From contig NZ_LZGM01000118.1 of assembly GCF_001690195.1 (NCBI RefSeq), positions 62,001 through 126,000 of the forward strand: a stretch of DNA of 64,000 nucleotides. The letters are read 5' to 3'. Source of the DNA: Gilliamella sp. wkB108 (GTDB lineage Bacteria; Pseudomonadota; Gammaproteobacteria; Enterobacterales; Orbaceae). Under the pieces are notes generated by a model. It was not told where the DNA came from and searched no databases. It was given only the letters and a program-made list of their open reading frames with translations. This document shows, piece by piece, positions 2,774 to 55,814 of this stretch; the first letter of the stretch is position 1, and every line of letters starts with the position of its first letter. Both the position numbers and the translations under genes were made by a program.

Positions 2774-5298
2774 ATTATTCTCCTAACATTTATTTGACGT
2801 TCAGCTTCTGTAGCTGGGCGGTGTTGATCACGTTCTGGAACAAATTGAACATTTTCATCGCGTTTATCACTGTTAATGAAATGTGCGAATCGTCGTTGAT
2901 TTTCAGAATGTTCAACAGTCTCTGTCCATTCACATACCATTAATTTACGCAAGCGAGCCATTTCACTTTCGAGTTCTGCATTAATACCTAACTTATTATC
3001 AATAATTACGCTACGTAAATAATCCATTCCACCTTCTAAATTTTCAAGCCAGACGGAGGTTCGTTGTAATTTATCTGCGGTGCGAATATAGAAAATAATA
3101 AAACGATCTATGTATTGAATTAAGGTGTTTTTATCCAAATCTGCTGCCAATAAGTCTGCATGACGTGGTTTCATACCACCATTACCACATACATAAAGAT
3201 TCCAACCTTTTTCTGTCGCAATAATACCAATATCTTTACCTTGAGCTTCTGCACATTCACGAGTACAACCTGAGACACCCAATTTGAATTTATGTGGTGC
3301 GCGAATACCTTTATAGCGGTTTTCCAGTTCAATACCCAAGCCGACACTATCACCCACACCATATCGACACCAAGTACTACCTACACAGGTTTTAGCCATT
3401 CTTAAGGCTTTGGCATAAGCGTGACCACTTTCAAAACCGGCCGCGATAAGTTCTTTCCAAATAGCTGGAAGATCATCTTTTTGCGCACCAAATAGACCAA
3501 TACGTTGTGATCCAGTAATTTTAGAATAGAGGTGATATTTTTTGGCGATGTTACCAATAGCAATTAATCCTTCTGGTGTGATTTCGCCACCAGCACTTCT
3601 TGGGATGACCGAATATGTACCGTTTTTTTGAATATTACCTAAGAAAATATCATTGCTATCTTGTAGAGGAATTAAATCTTGTTTAAGCACATACTCATTC
3701 CAACACGATGCTAATAAAGAAGCGACTATCGGCTTACAAATTTCACAACCATAGCCATTACCATGTTTTTTAATGACTTCATCAAATGACCTTAAACCTT
3801 CAAAACGAATTAGATGATACAACTCCTGACGGGAATATTTAAAATGTTCACATAATGCATGACTTACTTCAATACCTTGTTTTTTTAATTCTAAATTAAG
3901 AATTTGTGTCACTAATGGGATACAACCACCACACCCTGTCCCCGCTTTTGTTTCTGCTTTAATTGCAGCTACAGTATGGCATCCGGCTTTTATCGCATTA
4001 ATAATCTTCTCTTTACTTACATCAAAACAAGAACAGATTTGCGCCGAGTCAGGAAGCGCTTCAACCCCCATTGCCGGTTTAGCGCCAGCATGGGACGGGA
4101 GTATTAATGTATCTGGATGCTCAGGTAACTCCATATTATTCAGCATTAATTGTAATAAGTTACTATAATCTGCTGTATCGCCAACTAACACTGCGCCCAA
4201 TAATTGTTTATTATCATTAGACACAACTAATTTTTTATAAACAGGGACATTTTCATCTAAATAAATGTAACTCCGACTTCCGGTCGTTTTAGCTTTAGCA
4301 TCACCGATACTACCTACATCCACCCCCATAAGTTTCAATTTGGCGCTCATATCTGCGCCCGCAAATTGGATTGTTTCACCCATTAAGTGGCCTAATGCAA
4401 CTTGAGCCATTTTATAACCAGGCGCAACTAAACCAAAAACCTTACCTTGCCAACAAGCACATTCACCAATAGCATAAATATCTGGATCAGATGTTTGGCA
4501 AAAATCATTAATGACTATGCCACCTCGAGTACCCATTTCGAGTTCACACTCTTTGGCTAATTTATCATTGGGCCTGATACCTGTTGAAAACACGATAAAA
4601 TCGATTTCGAGTGAAGAACCATCTGCAAATTGCATGACTTTACCGTTAGGCGTATGAATGATTTCTTGGGTATTTTTACTGGTATGAACTTTAACACCCA
4701 TCTCTTCGATTTTTCGGCGTAACTGTTCACCACCCATAACATCAAGTTGTTCTGCCATTAAGACTGGCGCAAATTCAACTACATGAGTTTCCATGCCTAA
4801 ATTTTTCATCGCACCTGCGGCTTCAAGTCCTAATAAACCACCACCAACAACAACGCCTGTTTTACAATGGCTAGCACACTCTTTTATAGCATTAAGATCT
4901 TCGATGGTACGATAAACAAAACAGTCTGGGCCATTAGCACCTTTGATAGGTGGAACCCAAGGATGAGAGCCTGTAGCAATAATCAATTTATCATAGGCAA
5001 CAATTCTACCTGTCTGCGAATGTACCTCTTTACGTTGGCGATTGATTAAGATCGCGCGTTCACTCAATAAAATATTGATATTGTTTTCTTCGTATAATCC
5101 TTCACGTACCAAAGAAAGCGCTTCAGCAGTATGATCGGAAAAATAAGAAGAGAGGTGTACTCTGTCGTAGGCAAGACGAGGTTCTTCGCAAAAGATAGTA
5201 ATGTTAAACTGATCGGACTGCATTTTATCAATTAACTCTTCAATAAAACGATGTCCGACCATCCCATTACCGATAATAACGAGATTGGTTTTACTCAT
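2770..5298 (-). CDS. nirB: Nitrite reductase [NAD(P)H] large subunit
   Basis: NirB is the catalytic subunit of the assimilatory/detoxifying cytoplasmic nitrite reductase. From the N-terminus there is an FAD/NADH oxidoreductase domain (VIIGNGMVGHRF, later VVVGGGLLGLEAAG), a BFD-like [2Fe-2S] domain (CSCF, then GTGCGGC) and a C-terminal sirohaem/[4Fe-4S] domain with two paired cysteine motifs (CVGSTWC and CTRECAEAQ). The start chosen is the ATG at 5298, giving 842 residues. It has GGAG at good spacing and begins MSKTNLVIIGNG like family members. A longer frame opening at 5325 adds nine residues with no homology. It is the first gene of nirBDC-cysG. Confidence 0.96.
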   Translation of the reverse strand: MSKTNLVIIGNGMVGHRFIEELIDKMQSDQFNITIFCEEPRLAYDRVHLSSYFSDHTAEALSLVREGLYEENNINILLSERAILINRQRKEVHSQTGRIVAYDKLIIATGSHPWVPPIKGANGPDCFVYRTIEDLNAIKECASHCKTGVVVGGGLLGLEAAGAMKNLGMETHVVEFAPVLMAEQLDVMGGEQLRRKIEEMGVKVHTSKNTQEIIHTPNGKVMQFADGSSLEIDFIVFSTGIRPNDKLAKECELEMGTRGGIVINDFCQTSDPDIYAIGECACWQGKVFGLVAPGYKMAQVALGHLMGETIQFAGADMSAKLKLMGVDVGSIGDAKAKTTGSRSYIYLDENVPVYKKLVVSNDNKQLLGAVLVGDTADYSNLLQLMLNNMELPEHPDTLILPSHAGAKPAMGVEALPDSAQICSCFDVSKEKIINAIKAGCHTVAAIKAETKAGTGCGGCIPLVTQILNLELKKQGIEVSHALCEHFKYSRQELYHLIRFEGLRSFDEVIKKHGNGYGCEICKPIVASLLASCWNEYVLKQDLIPLQDSNDIFLGNIQKNGTYSVIPRSAGGEITPEGLIAIGNIAKKYHLYSKITGSQRIGLFGAQKDDLPAIWKELIAAGFESGHAYAKALRMAKTCVGSTWCRYGVGDSVGLGIELENRYKGIRAPHKFKLGVSGCTRECAEAQGKDIGIIATEKGWNLYVCGNGGMKPRHADLLAADLDKNTLIQYIDRFIIFYIRTADKLQRTSVWLENLEGGMDYLRSVIIDNKLGINAELESEMARLRKLMVCEWTETVEHSENQRRFAHFINSDKRDENVQFVPERDQHRPATEAERQINVRRII

Positions 5299-5391
5299 AA
5301 CAAACTCCAATTCTATTTTATTCAATTATTTAATTTTTATTCTCTCCACATTGTATGAAACTTTGTACAGAATATAATTACCCTCAAGGAT

Positions 5392-5407
5392 TACCACTTT
5401 AGTAGTA
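5392..5407. promoter_or_regulatory. NarL/NarP-like 7-2-7 palindrome upstream of nirB
   Basis: TACCACT-TT-AGTAGTA is an inverted pair of heptamers spaced by 2 bp. Each heptamer matches six of seven positions of the NarL/NarP consensus TACYYMT. It lies about 95 bp upstream of the nirB start, and enteric nirB promoters carry a NarL/NarP site. The AT-rich stretch just downstream on the minus strand could hold the -10 element. I found no full FNR palindrome, only TTGAT half-sites. The site is inferred from the sequence alone. Confidence 0.4.
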
Positions 5408-5910
5408 ATCGAATTAAGATACATAAAATCAATTTGTTATGAATATTGACTTGTTAATTTAATCAACAGTGATCAACAAAGGTTAACTTACCTACGTTTT
5501 TTTACTGAGAGAGGATGATTTTATCAATCATGGTGTTAATAACATTATAGGCTATTAATCTTTTACAATTATTTATCTTATCTATGATAAGCTTGCCGAT
5601 TAATATTGAAGATAGATGAATGACTAAGCAAAAGTTAAGATTTATAAAAATTAATTGACCATTCCTTGACTCACAAATTCATTCATTAAATATGAGTAAG
5701 ATGCAGGGCAATTAAGAGATTATTAATGTGTGCAATTTACAAAATTTTATTAACTTTATCGTAGGTTATTTGTAGCTGATAATGATGATAAAGAAGTATA
5801 AAAAACCCAATTAATGAATAAGTAAGCGAATAAAAATATCTATTAAAAATGATTGCAAATTAAAATTAAAACATTATAATTAGCCGACTAAATAAATTGG
5901 GTGATAATAA
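5408..5910. other. AT-rich intergenic region between nirB and the MarR gene
   Basis: About 500 bp separate the divergent nirB and MarR genes. I see no coding frame with a ribosome-binding site, no tRNA and no strong terminator. The sequence is very AT-rich, with scattered TTGAT/ATCAA half-sites near 5449-5476. A TATAAT hexamer at about 5874-5879 lies immediately before the MarR gene leader. Confidence 0.5.
5881..5897 (+). promoter_or_regulatory. Shared leader motif, copy 1 (MarR gene)
   Basis: TAGCCGACTAAATAAAT sits between a TATAAT and the start of the MarR gene. It recurs with one mismatch at 6456-6472 before the HlyD gene. The duplication in front of both genes of this locus makes it a candidate operator for the MarR-type regulator, covering the transcription start. 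This is inference. Confidence 0.35.
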
Positions 5911-8755: not shown

Positions 8756-8857
8756 TTTTCAAACAGATTAAGATTGTTGTTTCTTAACTCCCTTTTAGTC
8801 AACTTTTAGTCCAGTGGTAAGAAGGGATCACCAACAATAGTGTGACTAAAAACATAA

Positions 8858-8897
8858 AAAGCAGACAATTTATTAATGAAATAAATCGGTCTGCTTT
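8858..8897. terminator. Long bipartite hairpin between convergent genes
   Basis: AAAGCAGAC pairs with GTCTGCTTT, and inside it ATTTATT pairs with AATAAAT around an AATGA loop, giving 16 base pairs in two blocks. It lies between convergent genes, consistent with a transcription end for either. No strong T-run follows, so terminator activity is uncertain. Confidence 0.45.
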
Positions 8898-9065
8898 GAC
8901 TTAATAATTTAACGGATATTTGCATGAAAATGGATTTTTTGAAAAAACTATTTTATCAACGATCGGTCAAAAATAGAGGTTTAGTAGCCTAGTATTATTT
9001 CGTGTAATCATCTTAACAGCATAATATATAAGTCAAACTTGTTGATTTTGTTAATTTTTACTATC

Positions 9066-9101
9066 AAGATGTTTCAGGAAAAGGCTACGTTTTAATATAA
9101 A
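9066..9101. repeat. Dispersed 36-bp element, copy 1
   Basis: The stretch begins AAGATGTTTCAGGAAA and ends ATATAAA. By eye it matches a second site at 54483-54518 at about 28 of 36 positions, without gaps. Both copies are intergenic. It may be a short interspersed repeat or a shared binding site. Confidence 0.4.
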
Positions 9102-9114
9102 CCACTTGTCACAC

Positions 9115-9765
9115 TTATTTTTTCTCAATTATTACTTCATTTGTTGCTGTTTTTGCTAAAGTCAGATCATTAAAACAATGGACTGATAATCCTACTTTAT
9201 GATTAACTGATTGAGGTGAGTCAATACCAACAATTTGACAATTAGCATTATAAGCAGATTCAATACCTGCAACTGAATCTTCAAAAACGATACATTGCTC
9301 AGCCTCTAACCCAAGTGCCTTAACTCCCTGCAAATAACCGTCTGGCGCTGGTTTTGTTTTTGCAACCATTTCACCAGTAATAAATATGGGTGGTTTAGGT
9401 AAGTTAAGTTTGCTATATCGCGCTTGTGCTACCGGTTTGGTTCCCGAAGTGACAATACCCCAAGGAATATTAAGCGCAGATAATTGTTGTAAAAAGTTTG
9501 ATGCACCAGATATTTCATCTACTTCGGCAATGTCTTTGGCTTCTAATTGTTCCAACCACAAAAACTCTTGCTCAATATACTCATCGGGTTTATTAGGTAA
9601 AAAAAACTTGATGTTATCTATCGCTTTCCTACCATGAATATTATTTAGTAAATAGGTATGATCGAGTTGATGCCGATCAGCAAATTTTAAATAACAGCGC
9701 TCCACTGAAGAAAGTGAATTAACTAAAGTCCCATCTAAATCAAAAAGAATTCCTTTGGCTTTCAT
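9115..9765 (-). CDS. hxpA: Hexitol/sugar phosphatase, HAD superfamily (YfbT type)
   Basis: A 216-residue HAD phosphatase. Motif I is FDLDGTLVNS at the N-terminus, IVTSGTKPVAQAR is motif II, and KTKPAPDGY with VFEDSVAGIESA are motifs III and IV. The IHGRKAI segment in the cap and the overall length match E. coli HxpA (YfbT), which dephosphorylates hexitol phosphates and related sugar phosphates. It lies about 490 bp from the galactitol genes, so a role in relieving sugar-phosphate stress fits the neighbourhood. In E. coli hxpA adjoins yfbS; here the yfbS-like gene is about 12 kb away. Confidence 0.85.
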   Translation of the reverse strand: MKAKGILFDLDGTLVNSLSSVERCYLKFADRHQLDHTYLLNNIHGRKAIDNIKFFLPNKPDEYIEQEFLWLEQLEAKDIAEVDEISGASNFLQQLSALNIPWGIVTSGTKPVAQARYSKLNLPKPPIFITGEMVAKTKPAPDGYLQGVKALGLEAEQCIVFEDSVAGIESAYNANCQIVGIDSPQSVNHKVGLSVHCFNDLTLAKTATNEVIIEKK

Positions 9766-16396: not shown

Positions 16397-18202
16397 GTGA
16401 ATCCAATTGTTCAAGCTGTCACTCAGCGTATTATTGAGCGTTCTAAAGCTTCCCGTGAAGTTTATTTGCAAAAAATAGAACGCGCTATGTTTCAAAAAGT
16501 AACCAGAGCCACTTTGCCGTGTAGTAATCTGGCACATGGCTTTGCTGCCTGTTGTATCGATGAAAAAAATGATTTAAAAAATATCTTGAAAAGTAATATC
16601 GGCATTATTAGTTCTTACAATGATATGCTTTCAGCTCATAAGCCTTATGAATTTTATCCGGAACAGATTCGTAAAGTATTACATGAGGTAGGCGCGGTCG
16701 GACAAATGGCCGGTGGCGTGCCGGCTATGTGTGATGGTGTTACTCAAGGTGAACCCGGAATGGAATTATCATTGATGAGTCGGGATGTGATTGCCATGTC
16801 TGTTGCAGTGGCTCTCTCCCATAATATGTTTGATGGCGCTTTATATTTAGGAATATGTGATAAAATCGTACCGGGACTTTTTGTTGGTGCATTAACCTTT
16901 GGACATTTACCAGCAATTTTTATACCCGCCGGTCCAATGCCTTCCGGACTCCCTAATAAAGAAAAAGTCCGTATTCGTCAACTTTATTCAGAAGGTAAAG
17001 CCACGCGTGAAGATTTGTTAGAATCAGAGTCAGCATCTTACCATACCAGTGGGACGTGTACTTTTTACGGTACAGCCAATAGTAACCAAATGGTCATTGA
17101 ATTGATGGGGTTACATCTACCCGGCGCGGCTTTTGTTCATCCTGAAACGGCATTACGTTTTGAATTAACTAATGCCGCTGCCAAGCAAATTACTCGTCTA
17201 ACCAACCAGTCAGGAAATTATATGCCGGTTGGTAAAATGGTTGACGAAAAAGTGATTGTAAATGGTTTAGTTGCATTACTTGCTACTGGTGGTTCTACCA
17301 ACCTAACGATGCATATTGTTGCCATGGCCAAAGCAGCAGGTATTATTATTAATTGGGATGATATCTCTGATTTATCCACTGTTGTTCCTTTACTTTGTAG
17401 AATCTATCCAAATGGACCTGCGGATATTAATTACTTCCAAGCGGCGGGAGGCACTCCATTGTTAGTGAGAGAACTCTTAAATGGTGGTTTATTACATGAA
17501 GATGTAGAAACCGTTGCTGGACATGGTCTAAGTCGTTATACCAAAGAGCCTATTTTAGAAAATGGTCAATTGATCTACCGCGACGGACCAACAAAATCAT
17601 TAGATGAAAATGTCATTGCATCAATGAAAAAGCCTTTTAATTCCCATGGTGGACTAAAAGTCATGTCAGGTAATCTTGGTCGCGCTGTAATGAAAACATC
17701 GGCTATCGCACCTGAACATCAGATTATTGAAGCTCCTGCAGTGGTTTTTAACAGTCAATATGATTTAGATGCTGAATATAAAGCTGGAAAACTTGATAAA
17801 GATTGTATCGTTGTTGTTCGCTACCAAGGGCCAAAAGCGATTGGCATGCCTGAACTACATAAACTGATTACTCCATTGGGAGTACTGCAAGATCGTGGTT
17901 ACAAAGTGGCATTATTAACCGATGGACGCCTCTCTGGAGCATCGGGTAAAGTACCGGCTGCTATTCATGTGACACCGGAAGCCTATGACGGTGGGTTATT
18001 AAGTAAGGTAAAAAATGGTGATATGATTCGCGTCAATGGTCAAAGCGGTGAGATGACATTATTAGTTGATCAAGCAGAATTAGCTAAACGTGAACCTTAT
18101 CCATTTGATTTAACCGATTCCCATCATGGTTTTGGTCGTGAACTTTTCACAGTTATTCGTGAAAATCTTACTTCAGCGGAAGAAGGTGCTGTCAGTTTTT
18201 AA
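16397..18202 (+). CDS. edd: Phosphogluconate dehydratase
   Basis: A 601-residue Fe-S dehydratase of the IlvD/Edd family that converts 6-phosphogluconate to 2-keto-3-deoxy-6-phosphogluconate. Recognisable blocks are [38 protein letters not shown] and [13 protein letters not shown]. Cysteines for the cluster are present. The start is a GTG with AAGAGG upstream. The partner aldolase eda does not follow; instead the gene is followed by a hairpin and a tandem repeat array. Its last codons recur, decayed, about 1.07 kb downstream. Confidence 0.95.
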
Positions 18203-18235
18203 ACTAAGCTTTCTGCCACAAAACGTGGCAGAAAC
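18165..18235 (+). repeat. Direct repeat, left copy: edd 3' end plus hairpin
   Basis: The last codons of edd, its stop and the hairpin TTCTGCCAC/GTGGCAGAA (18211-18233, loop AAAAC) are duplicated at 19231-19301, offset 1066 bp. The hairpin is strong but lacks a T-run, so it may be a processing or protective structure as much as a terminator. The copies bracket the 109-bp array. Confidence 0.75.
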
Positions 18236-19141
18236 GGCATAGACTCCTGAATATTTTTTACAAAATATACGTCAAGTTATATACAAATCAACCCTGTTAG
18301 AACCCATTTAGCAACTATATTCAGCATCAAAAGAGAAATGAAGCGGCATAGACTCCTGAATATTTTTTACAAAATATGCATCAAATTATATACAAATCGA
18401 CCCCGTTATAACTCACTTAATTGCTATTTGTTGCATCAAAAGAGAAATGAAGCGGTATAGACTCCTGAATATTTTTTACAAAATATATAGCAAATTCTAT
18501 ACAAACCGACCTTGTTAGAACTCACTTAGTTGCTATTTGTTGCATCAAAAGAAAAATAAAACGGCATAGACTCCTGAATAATTTTTACAAAATATGTAGC
18601 AAATTCTATACAAACCAACCCTGTTAGAACTCACTTAGTTGCTATTTGTTGCGTCGAAAGAGAAATAAAACGGTATAGATCCCTGAATATTTTTTACAAA
18701 TAATGTGTCAAATTATATACAAACCAACCTCGCTATAACTCAATTAGCTGCTACATGTAGCTATAAGAGAAAAATGAAGCGGTATAGACTCCTGAATAAT
18801 TTTTACAAAAAATGCGTCAAGTTATTTACAAACCTACCCTGTTAGAACCCACTTAGTTACTATTTGTTGCGTTGAAAGAGAAATGAAACGGTATAGATCC
18901 CTGAATATTTTTTACAAAACAAAATATACATCAAATTCTATACAAGCCAACCCTGTTAGAACTCACTTAATTGCTATTTGTTGCGTCGAAAGAAAATGAA
19001 GCGGTATAGACTCCTGAATAATTTTTACAAAAAATGCGTCAAGTTATTTACAAACCTACCCTGTTAGAATCCACTTAGTTACTATTTGTTGCGTTGAAAG
19101 AGAAATGAAATGGTACAGATCCCTGAATATTTTTTACAAAA
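18236..19141. repeat. Tandem array of a 109-bp unit (eight units and a partial ninth)
   Basis: The landmark AGACTCCTGAATA (or AGATCCCTGAATA) recurs at 18241, 18350, 18459, 18568, 18677, 18786, 18895, 19008 and 19117. Spacing is exactly 109 bp except 113 bp for the seventh unit. Units continue with a T-run, TTACAAA, CTGTTAGAACTCACTTAG, TGCTATTTGTTGC and an A-rich end. Units 6 and 8 differ at only about three positions, showing a recent two-unit duplication. There are no unique spacers, so it is not CRISPR. I see no conserved coding frame. Function unknown. Confidence 0.93.
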
Positions 19142-19230
19142 TTAAAAATCTATAAATGAATCTCAATCCTTGTTTTACTTAAAAGGATTATAGCTTTATA
19201 AAAAGCCCTTTCTTTTGGGGAATTTGTAAA

Positions 19231-19301
19231 ATCTGAATTGAACGTAAGAAGATATTGTCAGTTTTTAATCTGAGCCTTCTGCCACAATACGTGGCAGAAA
19301 C
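19231..19301 (+). repeat. Direct repeat, right copy: decayed edd tail plus hairpin
   Basis: This repeats the edd 3' end. GAAGATATTGTCAGTTTTTAA aligns in frame with the edd terminal codons, and the stop (19266-19268) is kept. A TAA just upstream and several substitutions show it is not translated as edd. The hairpin TTCTGCCAC/GTGGCAGAA (19277-19299) is preserved in both arms while its loop differs (AATAC). The stretch beyond it (CCTGAAACTTTTTCACGAAAATA near 19322) resembles a degenerate start of a 109-bp unit. Confidence 0.7.
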
Positions 19302-19379
19302 GCCCAATAAACCTATAGCTAACCTGAAACTTTTTCACGAAAATAGTAATTTTATTTAGATGAAATTGTTTCTGTTAAC

Positions 19380-21101
19380 TTACTTTTTAACAAAGTTATC
19401 GACCAATAAATGAACTACATCTCCCATTTTTCCACTTAAAGAAGCTTTCACGCCATAAAGTGCCATTCCCATTACTTGAGATGCTTTAATTTCTGGAGGC
19501 ATAACCAGTTCGTTAGGACTGGTCTTTACGTCTAATAAAGCCGGACCTGAATGAGCTAAAAATGATTGCACCGCTGCTTCCAGTAAATCTGAATCTTCTA
19601 CTCTTATGGAAAATAATCCTATGGATTCAGCCACTTTTGCAAAATCAGGATTTTGTAAATCAGTATAGTGATCGACTAATCCTTCTACTTTTTGCTCTAA
19701 TTCTACAAAATTGAGTGAACCATTATTCAGTACAATTATTTTTATAGGTAATTTCTCTTGAATGGTGGTTAATAAATCGCCTAACAGCATACTTAATCCA
19801 CCGTCACCTGAGAGTGTAATAACTTGACGATTAGGAAAGGCTTTTTGTACACCTAATGCTTGAGGCATGGCATTGGCCATTGTGCCATGTTTAAGACTTA
19901 TTACTGTTCGTCGTTTACCATTGGTATTGAAATGGCGACAAGCCCACACCATTGCCGAACCGACATCAGCACAAAGAACAGCATCATCAGAGGCATACTT
20001 ATCAATCAGTTCAGTTAAATATTGAGGATGAATAGTAGAATGTGAAGGCAATGCTTTTTTATTCAATTTATTCATTGATTTTATATACAATTGACGACAC
20101 ATTTCTAAAAATTTAGCGTCTATCTTCTGATCGACTAAAGGAATTAATGCCGATAAAGTTGGTTTACTACTACCAACAACGCCTATATCTACTGGATGAC
20201 GACGACCAAGATGAGTTGCATCTATATCAACTTGAATAATAGTGGCTTTATCTGGGTAGAACTGTGACCATGCAAAATCAGCACCTAACATTAAAAGCAC
20301 ATCACACTCTTTAATCGCTGTCGCACCTGATTCCATTCCAAACATACCAGTCATGCCAACATTATAAGGGTTGTCGTACTCTACAAAGTCTTTCGCTCTA
20401 GAAGTGTGTACAATCGGTGATTTTAACTTATCCGCCAGTGCAATTAATTCATCGTGGGCTTCATACACACCTTGCCCTGCAAAGATAGCTACTTTGCTAT
20501 TTTTATTCAATATATTGGCTATTTGCGAAAGTTCTTTATCGGAAGGACGAATAATTGGGTTAGGATGATAAATTTTATGACCACTGTTATCTTCTACATG
20601 TACCACGCTAATATTATAAGGTATGACCAACACTGCAACACCACGTTGATTTATCGCCGCTTGAATCGCTGCCGTAGTAATTTCCCGCACCTGAGTAGGA
20701 TCGTTAATTTGTCGGCAGAACACTGAACAGTTTTTATAAAGGGATTCAAAATCAACTTCTTGTGGAAAATCGGTTCCCTGTTGAGAAGTAACTAATTGGC
20801 TAGCTAATAAAATAACCGGAACTTTATTTCGTTGAGCTTCATAAATACCATTAATAAAATGTAAACTCCCCGGACCACAAGAGCCTGCGCAAGCTGTAAT
20901 TTGGTTGGTAAGATAAGCGTCAGCACCGGCAGCAAAAGCCCCGACTTCTTCATGACGAACATGTATCCATTCAATATCACTTTTTTCGATTGCAGCAGTT
21001 ATATGGTTTAATGTATCACCTACAATTCCATAACAATGTTTAACACCTGCTTCTGCTAAAATATCTACTATAATTTGTGCCACAGTCTTTTTTGATGACA
21101 T
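19380..21101 (-). CDS. poxB: Pyruvate dehydrogenase (quinone) / pyruvate oxidase
   Basis: A 573-residue thiamine-diphosphate enzyme. The N-terminal domain has HEEVGAFAAGADA. The central FAD domain includes EYDNPYNVGMTGM. The C-terminal ThDP motif is GDGGLSMLLGD...LNN. The last 25 residues resemble the amphipathic membrane-binding tail of E. coli PoxB (GVKASLSGKMGDVVHL), so electrons probably go to ubiquinone with acetate and CO2 as products. AGGAGAG precedes the ATG. It is monocistronic and converges on edd. Acetolactate synthase is excluded by the overall match. Confidence 0.9.
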   Translation of the reverse strand: MSSKKTVAQIIVDILAEAGVKHCYGIVGDTLNHITAAIEKSDIEWIHVRHEEVGAFAAGADAYLTNQITACAGSCGPGSLHFINGIYEAQRNKVPVILLASQLVTSQQGTDFPQEVDFESLYKNCSVFCRQINDPTQVREITTAAIQAAINQRGVAVLVIPYNISVVHVEDNSGHKIYHPNPIIRPSDKELSQIANILNKNSKVAIFAGQGVYEAHDELIALADKLKSPIVHTSRAKDFVEYDNPYNVGMTGMFGMESGATAIKECDVLLMLGADFAWSQFYPDKATIIQVDIDATHLGRRHPVDIGVVGSSKPTLSALIPLVDQKIDAKFLEMCRQLYIKSMNKLNKKALPSHSTIHPQYLTELIDKYASDDAVLCADVGSAMVWACRHFNTNGKRRTVISLKHGTMANAMPQALGVQKAFPNRQVITLSGDGGLSMLLGDLLTTIQEKLPIKIIVLNNGSLNFVELEQKVEGLVDHYTDLQNPDFAKVAESIGLFSIRVEDSDLLEAAVQSFLAHSGPALLDVKTSPNELVMPPEIKASQVMGMALYGVKASLSGKMGDVVHLLVDNFVKK

Positions 21102-32831: not shown

Positions 32832-33188
32832 TTATTTCTTGATTGGCTTACGCGGTCCCTTACGGGTACGAGCGTTAGTCTTAGTGCGTTGACCACGGAC
32901 AGGAAGTCCACGACGGTGACGCATGCCACGATAACAACCAAGGTCTAATAAACGCTTGATACTCATTGTTACTTCACGACGTAAATCACCTTCAACGGTA
33001 AATTTAGCGACTTGTTCACGTAACTTTTCAATCTGATCTTCAGATAGTTCTCTGATCTTAACATGTTCAGGAATACCCGCTTCAGCACAAATTGTCTTAG
33101 CGCGAGTATTACCGATACCATAAATTGCTTGTAAAGCAATTACAGCATGTTGCTGATCAGGAATGTTAATGCCTGCTATACGGGCCAC
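32832..33188 (-). CDS. rpsM: 30S ribosomal protein S13
   Basis: A 118-residue S13 of the 30S head. The start is the GTG at 33188 ([19 protein letters not shown]), with AAGGAG at good spacing. An in-frame ATG upstream would add 12 unrelated residues and lies within the regulatory leader. The C-terminal [18 protein letters not shown] tail contacts P-site tRNA. It is the first gene of the alpha operon; the GTG start is also used in E. coli. Confidence 0.97.
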
Positions 33189-33262
33189 TATGCACTCCTT
33201 TTTGTTAATGTTCAGCAAACCCACTATACTGAAAAGCCCGTTTTCAGGATACTCAAACAGTG
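33189..33262 (-). promoter_or_regulatory. Alpha operon leader, S4-binding pseudoknot
   Basis: The minus-strand leader contains CTGAAAA-CGGGC-TTTTCAG, preceded by TTTGAGTATC, and then the rpsM ribosome-binding site. From memory this matches the E. coli alpha-operon leader, in which S4 stabilises a nested pseudoknot that traps the 30S subunit. A nearby extra CTGAA can also pair with TTCAG, fitting alternative folds. Confidence 0.75.
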
Positions 33263-33267
33263 GATTT

Positions 33268-33302
33268 ACAAAAAAATTTTAGGCTGGCTATTCTAGCCAG
33301 CT
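33268..33302 (-). terminator. Terminator of the spc operon after rpmJ
   Basis: On the minus strand GCTGGCTA pairs with TAGCCAGC around a three-base loop, followed by CTAAAATTTTTTTG. It separates rpmJ from the alpha-operon leader. Confidence 0.85.
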
Positions 33303-55344: not shown

Positions 55345-55814
55345 TTATCTGTTATAAACGTTAATTTTTGACTTAATCGTATCTTCATTAATTTTTTTTA
55401 GATTATTATAATTATCACAACCTGCTTTAAAATTTTTATCACAAACTTGCTTAAAATATTGTCTTGCTAAAGGTAGATCTCGTTTACCCCTGTTCCATAA
55501 TAGTAAAGAAGACCTAATTTATTGATAGTTTCTAACTAATCATGATTTGTTTCTTGTAAATGCCATTTACCTTGGGTTGCTACCTTTTGATACCAATAAA
55601 AAACCGGTTTATAATCAACTCCAACACCATTACCTAAACTATACATTGCAGCTAAATTAAATTGTGATTTTGCATCTCCTTGTTCAGCTTACTCTTTACA
55701 TACAACGAATGCTTTTTCATAATTTTTCTTTTTTATATAAGAATCACATTGGTCAGCAAAAATAAAACCAGAAAAACTAATCAATAACATAACTAACGAT
55801 AATGATTTTTTCAT
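55345..55814 (-). pseudogene. Decayed Sel1-repeat secreted protein gene
   Basis: Read on the minus strand from the ATG at 55814, the frame encodes a signal peptide (MKKSLSLVMLLISFSGFIFA) and then Sel1-like repeats (AEQGDAKSQFNLAAMYSLGNG, LGLLYYYGTGV). It is interrupted by TAA at codon 42 (55689-55691) and TAG at codon 93 (55536-55538). A frameshift near 55487 continues as DLPLARQYFKQVCDKNFKAGC. Three lesions make sequencing error unlikely. It was probably a small exported or periplasmic Sel1 protein. Confidence 0.8.

Follow-up and report, generated by a model that had tools for sequence, protein, structure and literature searches.

The array and its surroundings

The window, by which is meant the whole 64,000-nucleotide stretch of Gilliamella sp. 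wkB108 DNA that was analysed, contains a tandem array between edd, the gene for phosphogluconate dehydratase (16397–18202, forward strand), and a convergent right-hand neighbour (19380–21101, reverse strand) that is taken, following a first-pass annotation, to be poxB-like. TRF calls the array at 18231–19142 with a period of 109, 8.3 copies, 82% matches and a score of 1112. It is made up of nine copies of a 29-bp sequence, here termed the A core, and the eight spacers that separate them, which belong to a class designated I; all nine cores are direct repeats on the forward strand and together they span 18236–19140. Core 1 (GGCATAGACTCCTGAATATTTTTTACAAA) occupies 18236–18264 and is followed by core 2 (18345–18373), core 3 (18454–18482), core 4 (18563–18591), core 5 (18672–18700), core 6 (18781–18809), core 7 (18890–18918), core 8 (19003–19031) and core 9 (19112–19140). 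The consensus of the core, which is the recurrent part of the family described below, is GGTATAGACTCCTGAATAWTTTTTACA; cores 3, 6 and 8 have 0 mismatches to it and core 9, the last of the array, has 3. Successive cores start 109 bp apart in seven instances and 113 bp apart in one, immediately after core 7, and the nine landmarks with one irregular interval that the first-pass annotation had described are therefore borne out by the core positions as well as by TRF. The copy number is that of a draft assembly in 129 contigs.

When the units of the window are aligned with one another, mean column identity is 0.96 in the first 29 columns versus 0.87 in the remaining 80, in keeping with the earlier remark that the unit is most constant at its beginning. 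The units are tandem and imperfect, being 75–98% alike: units 6 and 8 share 98% identity, and unit 7, which lies between them, stands at 78–80%. It had been suggested that recombination keeps the array uniform; from these figures it is plausible that recombination maintains the array or makes it grow. The spacers are alike, as copies of each other rather than unique sequences, and a CRISPR array is thus ruled out, as had already been argued from the letters. The array contains no ORF of at least 60 aa.

The array is bracketed by an imperfect duplication of 82 bp, delimited by pairwise alignment, that comprises the end of edd and a hairpin. Its left copy lies at 18155–18236 and its right copy, which adjoins poxB, at 19222–19302. 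Relatives carry a single copy, the place of which is occupied in the window by the right copy, and it is likely that the duplication is of recombinational origin. In the 21 relatives in which edd adjoins poxB the interval between the two genes is 46–140 bp, and the A core is absent from all 21 loci, where the best match has 6 mismatches (L067) and the others have 7–9, as compared with 8–10 for shuffled loci. Such poor matches indicate that the window array is particular to this lineage.

A single core of a second family, the B core, lies on the forward strand at 19314–19338, just beyond the 3′ end of the poxB-like gene. In several relatives a B-like sequence, read by eye, occupies the corresponding position near poxB, and L070, L071, L075, L077, L078 and L081 have in common a B-like variant, ahead of the end of poxB, around ACCCCNTTC(C/T)T(C/A)AA. 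Elsewhere in the window there are an alpha operon ribosome binding site (33156–33271, reverse strand; Rfam RF00140, 98.9 bits) and a 24-bp short tandem repeat of 1.9 copies (55412–55457). A plasmid search with a query of 1801 bases matched 25 records, and the 20 that were listed cover only its first 274 bases, that is edd, and not the array; viral contigs searched with the exact core pattern gave 0 matches.

A dispersed family of intergenic cores

The A core recurs many times in the genome to which the window belongs (G000; 3.08 Mb, 129 contigs). The pattern GGTATAGACTCCTGAATAWTTTTTACAAA, with at most 3 mismatches, has 87 matches in this genome and its reversed control has 0, while a single array unit used as the query has 89 matches, many of them limited to its first 31–39 bases. 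In the 28 stretches that were retrieved to cover the core matches, allowing up to 6 mismatches, there are 88 cores in 34 groups; 17 of the groups are arrays of two to nine cores, which account for 71 of the total, and the other 17 hold one core each. The A arrays share the plan core-(spacer-core)n and fall into several period classes, of 107–113 bp in nine arrays (L030, L032, L034, L035, L036, L038, L039, L040 and L044), to which class the window array belongs, 164–167 bp in four (L042, L043 and twice in L047), 218–246 bp in three (L037 and twice in L046) and 124 bp in one (L049). In 11 of the 34 groups the core is followed by the class I spacer (at least 70% identity, exceeding the best of 50 shuffles), and in the 164–167 bp class and at most single sites the common core is followed by unrelated sequence. 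The proposal that the 109-bp length is under constraint does not therefore hold generally, since the core recurs across the genome with other spacers and other periods: the element proper is the core of about 29 bp and not the 109-bp unit. In L047 the two arrays, of 165–166 bp period (5126–5651 and 8810–9170), are inverted relative to one another and lie about 3.2 kb apart.

Judged against ORFs of at least 90 aa, the groups of A cores are intergenic, the exceptions among the 34 being a 35-bp overlap with the end of an ORF (L047) and a doubtful ORF of 104 aa (L048). The neighbours of 24 groups, counted by eye, are convergent in 6, divergent in 3 and tandem in 15; this count omits the groups bordered by cdiA-like genes or transposases (L048, L051, four times L052, L054, L055 and L056) and L036, for which one neighbour is lacking. 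As far as they can be named, the genes next to A sites are functionally mixed, which argues against a coherent regulon. In L052, L055 and L056 (contigs C79, C116 and C128 of G000) an A core precedes orphan cdiA-CT/cdiI-like modules, named by eye, which have a common start of more than 100 bp.

The search of related genomes that the first-pass annotation had recommended places the family within the genus. Among the relatives of edd that were listed, the twelve best (L086–L097) all bear the name Gilliamella. Used as a query, 327 bp of the array found matches in 29 of 60 genomes, namely 29 of the 35 from Gilliamella and none of the 25 from other genera, and the core pattern is found in 30 of the 35 Gilliamella genomes with a control of 0 in each. 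In a comparison of homologous places, which gave 102 pairs of cores, the core has an identity of 0.93 and the 66-bp flanks one of 0.65, the core being the higher in 101 of them. These pairs are not independent, as many lie at the gene locus described below, some loci enter twice and a few may be paralogous places, and, the sites having been selected by their match to the pattern, part of the excess of core over flank is to be expected from the outset; the figures therefore set no precise bound. At several dispersed places the core is nevertheless retained with a flank identity of about 50%.

A gene between two cores

Outside the window, the A core also encloses a gene. This A gene (G000:C89:4186-4881) lies between two direct cores, and near-full-length relatives with 67–90% identity occur in 18 more genomes, giving a total of 19 of the 35 Gilliamella genomes. 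The upstream core starts 43–47 bp before the start codon in 18 of the 19 at up to 7 mismatches (15 of 19 at up to 5) and is absent in G012, and the downstream core lies 735–765 bp after the start in 16 of the 19 at up to 4 mismatches, being degenerate in G026 and absent in G007 and G025. The two flanking cores are direct with respect to each other and opposite in orientation to the gene. In the 19-genome alignment the upstream core stands out as a footprint, and it sits between a TATAnT-like −10 box and a Shine-Dalgarno sequence, both named by eye, a position that looks operator-like.

Possession of the gene goes with an abundance of sites. The 19 genomes that bear it have a median of 30 sites and the 16 without a whole gene a median of 3.5 (Mann-Whitney p 4e-4, with genomes taken as independent of kinship). 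After deduction of the gene's own two sites p is 0.003, and among the 30 genomes that are at least 90% complete the medians are 28 and 1 (p 0.0012). All of these counts used a pattern with G at core position 14, against which a core with C costs one mismatch, so that genomes with C14 cores are slightly undercounted. The exceptions run in both directions: G028 has 42 sites and no A gene, G018, with 34 sites, has no more of the gene than its first 38 residues at a contig edge, and G023 and G020 bear the gene yet have few sites.

Two variations on the locus were encountered. In L202, L204 and L205 (G009, G019 and G016) a third core lies 1.2–1.35 kb beyond the stop codon of the A gene, with a remnant of the C-terminal part of the gene nearby, as if the unit of gene and core had been partly duplicated. 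In G007 (L208) the A gene, which groups with those of G031 and G026, has a different C-terminus and lacks the downstream core, and the dispersed sites are of other variants; it is possibly a horizontal replacement.

The A protein

The family encoded by the A gene is of about 231 residues, and the A protein itself, of 231 aa, has four cysteines at 122–144 and a helix-turn-helix (HTH) at 162–205. It matches the NCBIfam IS1/IS1595 zinc domain at 1.3e-5 (NF050000, 25.6 bits, below the cut-off of 28) and positions 1–75 of the IS1 transposase model NF033558 at 4.6e-5 (23.4 bits, below the cut-off of 100), and it scores 14.7 bits against the Pfam IS1595 zinc ribbon (cut-off 25.4). Pfam contains no tyrosine (Y1) transposase match to it at E up to 5. 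The predicted structure has a mean pLDDT of 87.6, and the helices and strands of the model may be read as HTH, zinc ribbon and HTH in succession. There is no catalytic domain; the protein ends after the second HTH, as does the paralogous B protein introduced below. A fold search of the PDB with the model gave no match at E up to 0.001, and a profile search of solved structures was uninformative (best E 0.057). Plasmid sequences gave no match to the A protein.

Profile A2 at a threshold of 0.001 matches 56 of 295 genomes of the order, the matches outside the family covering part of the profile. The sole outside match that was checked, in G273 (1.9e-18), is an IS1595-type transposase (DDE_Tnp_IS1595 at 3.7e-17). 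Taken as sequence relationships, these likenesses suggest that the A protein descends from the zinc-ribbon/HTH part of a transposase of IS1/IS1595 type. No candidate partner with the DDE domain of IS1 (PF03400) was found in any of the 35 Gilliamella genomes, the positive control giving matches in E. coli and Methanosarcina. The median Ka/Ks of the A gene is 0.14, calculated for 153 of 171 pairs with the 18 saturated pairs omitted.

A paralogous second system

The B core, TATACTNAAACGTATAGCTAACCTGAAA, is related to the A core and has 128 copies in G000 by one pattern and 158 by another, with tens of copies in some other genomes. The two kinds of core alternate in the A arrays with periods of 218–246 bp. 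There is a corresponding paralogous B gene (G000:C78:83873-84655), the product of which is about 257 aa long with two ribbon-HTH modules and passes the Pfam IS1595 zinc-ribbon cut-off of 25.4 bits in two of three forms (28.2 bits in G029 and 26.3 in G135, as against 15.9 in G011). A B-like site, in opposite orientation, is found upstream of the B gene in 11 of 12 loci at up to 9 mismatches in 28, a loose threshold given that the A pattern, too, has 6 stray matches with exactly 9 mismatches in the same 12 loci. For this reason it is the constant place of the site and its footprint in a 16-genome alignment that carry weight. A third gene was considered as the partner of the B site and rejected, profile A2 in 15 genomes returning only A and B genes together with remnants and weak matches.

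Possible parallel variation in residue 190 and core base 14

Genomes differ in base 14 of the A core, which is either G or one of C and T. In the gene-flanking cores, as compared by eye, 18 of 19 genomes show agreement between this base and residue 190 of the A protein: 10 combine Asp with G, and 8 combine C or T with Asn or Ala; the remaining genome, G020 (Asn), has one gene-flanking core of each kind. In the predicted model residue 190 lies at the start of the recognition helix. The dispersed cores follow the same trend with more exceptions. In the ten Asp genomes 271 of 273 dispersed cores have G (among them 42 cores in G012, 28 in G017, 27 of these with G, and 58 in G033), a figure to be read in the knowledge that these sites were found partly with queries that hold G14, although the same pattern did find C14 cores in other genomes. 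In G006, G030, G026, G023, G020 and G025, 53 of 54 are not G. Discordant sets occur in G007 (Asn), with 4 G, 3 A and 1 C among 8 dispersed cores, and in G015 (Asn), with 10 G among 11; none are listed for G031. At three loci with homologous surroundings (L031/L174, L029/L025 and L039/L027) the difference between genomes at the dispersed core parallels that at the gene-flanking cores.

Residue 190 had been spotted by eye before the columns of the protein alignment were scanned, and its standing in that scan depends on how the genomes are grouped. With the genomes grouped by their gene-flanking cores and G020 placed with the C genomes, as its dispersed cores indicate, column 190 is the sole exception-free column of 224; if G020 is placed with the G genomes, column 190 has 1 exception and ties with column 126; and if all genomes are grouped by their dispersed cores, it has 2 exceptions and ties with columns 49, 116, 142 and 209. 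On the tree, the residue requires 3 changes, the flanking base 3 (with G020 set to C) and the dispersed base 5, and with about three changes independent pairs cannot reach significance. Given this dependence on grouping and the small number of changes, the apparent parallel change of residue 190 and core base 14 is suggestive and not proof.

A model for the array and its alternatives

The first-pass annotation had listed a multi-site binding region among several possible readings, and this is the one that the evidence favours, through the cognate gene with its flanking cores, the co-distribution of gene and sites, the promoter footprint and the partial covariation of residue and base. We consider it fairly probable that the cores are operators, in direct repeat, for a DNA-binding protein that was exapted from a transposase and regulates its own gene, and that they work in the manner of REP/RAYT. 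The array in the window would then present nine direct predicted binding sites for a stand-alone A protein, which would bind the core upstream of its own gene and repress it there. The dispersed and arrayed cores would be further predicted binding sites that load many copies of the A protein and so may act as a sink for the autorepressor, and an array placed between the convergent edd and poxB could in addition block read-through. The likeliest way for arrays to lengthen would be slippage, or unequal exchange, from one direct core to another. The computational results on which this model is built are the site family, the gene, the anatomy of its product, the co-occurrence of gene and sites, the footprints and the persistence of cores in diverged flanks; by these data the array is neither an artefact nor an ordinary minisatellite, and it is most likely part of a REP/RAYT-type partnership in which a zinc-ribbon/HTH protein takes the place of the tyrosine transposase.

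An alternative is that the cores are selfish, non-autonomous repeats resembling REP/BIMEs or MITEs, spread by a transposase acting in trans, with the A protein as the DNA-binding remnant of the element and the arrays without a role in the cell. The mosaic A-B arrays, the recurrence of the class I spacer after the core in about a third of the groups of one genome (11 of 34), the intergenic placement beside named genes without a functional theme and the bounding of the A gene by two cores, as in a small element, are all what such repeats would leave behind. Yet the cores are direct and not inverted, all nine in the window lying on one strand, and the imperfect 82-bp flanking duplication is unlike the inverted repeats and short target duplication of a MITE. 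PF03400, the sole transposase domain sought, was absent from the 35 genomes, the gene is intact in 19 species under a median Ka/Ks of 0.14, and cores persist where their flanks have diverged to about 50% identity. On balance we regard purely selfish repeats as unlikely, with the proviso that a selfish origin and a present role can both be true.

The remaining explanations are much less probable. Recombination sites like integron attC or Xer sites, at which a site-specific recombinase would cut direct cores flanking modules, are called to mind by the direct cores around the A gene, the array spacers and the orphan cdiA-CT/cdiI-like modules; but the spacers within an array are mutual copies and not different cassettes, and by eye no palindrome is kept through the cores, a partial one (ATATTTT/AAAATAT) being missing from many of them; this explanation is very improbable. 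Marginally less credible again is a passive, functionless minisatellite, expanded by slippage from a chance duplication: tandem, imperfect units and the lack of the A core at the edd–poxB loci of the 21 relatives are as such a process would produce, but this core stands in 34 groups, in many of which the spacers are unrelated, and it is accompanied by a cognate gene. The first-pass annotation had also thought of a hypervariable minisatellite for strain typing; the analysis covered a single genome per species. Least credible of all, and close to negligible, is a repeated small or structured RNA, also raised by the first-pass annotation, which has repetition alone in its favour: in the three of eight units that were folded, on both strands, z-scores ranged from −0.17 to +1.88 with no signal of structure, and an Rfam search gave zero matches in the array.

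The model of operators for an exapted DNA-binding protein can be widened to embrace the second family. In this broader form, which we advance tentatively and would not yet call probable, A and B would be two paralogous, non-HUH counterparts of REP/RAYT, each an exapted insertion sequence (IS) DNA-binding domain, autoregulated and acting genome-wide, with sites that multiply, form arrays and change along with the recognition helix. If this is true, it would represent a second solution, on a different transposase fold and without catalysis, and imply that partnerships of gene and repeat arise repeatedly. It would also offer a switch of residue-to-base specificity that can be tested in the laboratory, raise the question of how sites without a known transposase spread, and give bee-gut microbiology an identity for a frequent class of Gilliamella intergenic repeats.

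Comparison with known systems

A literature search, conducted largely without subscription papers, found no description of the A repeat family. The closest parallel is with REP/BIME and RAYT, which share with the A system a large number of short extragenic repeats in single copies and mosaic arrays, a transposase-related gene bounded by two copies of the repeat, and a gene presence that tracks repeat abundance (here medians of 30 versus 3.5, p 4e-4, with G028 and G018 as exceptions). In one account the RAYT gene and the REP repeat are said to coevolve; RAYTs are described there as tyrosine transposases with a relationship to IS200/IS605, and their REPs as palindromes that flank the gene in inverted orientation (PMC2817692). 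In contrast, the A core is non-palindromic, the two repeats at the gene are direct (16 of 19), and the A protein is a zinc-ribbon/HTH protein without a catalytic domain and not a Y1 transposase.

IS1 provides a second point of reference. Its InsA protein is portrayed as a zinc-finger/HTH repressor of the IS1 promoter that binds both ends of the element (PMC12428005). Compared with the right end of IS1A from E. coli K-12, the A core agrees at 10 of the initial 12 bases and, without gaps, at 15 of 27; this ungapped likeness was reached by 3 of 2000 shuffles in one of eight comparisons and the gapped score by 60 of 2000. The resemblance is only a hint of ancestry. The A system differs from IS1 in that the 35 Gilliamella genomes hold no IS1 DDE partner (InsAB′), in that the A protein has an extra N-terminal HTH region compared with InsA, and in that A sites are solitary or tandem and direct, not inverted IS ends.

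With IS1595 the A and B proteins share a zinc ribbon and HTH, but they stop after the second HTH, and the end of the multi-copy element in G036 (GGCTCTGTTCCC) bears only a faint likeness to the A core. As an exapted IS protein the A protein may also be set beside TldR, presented as a phage-encoded family of transcription factors that regulates flagellin. TldR descends from the IS protein TnpB. It is RNA-guided, whereas recognition of the core by the A protein would take place through its HTH.
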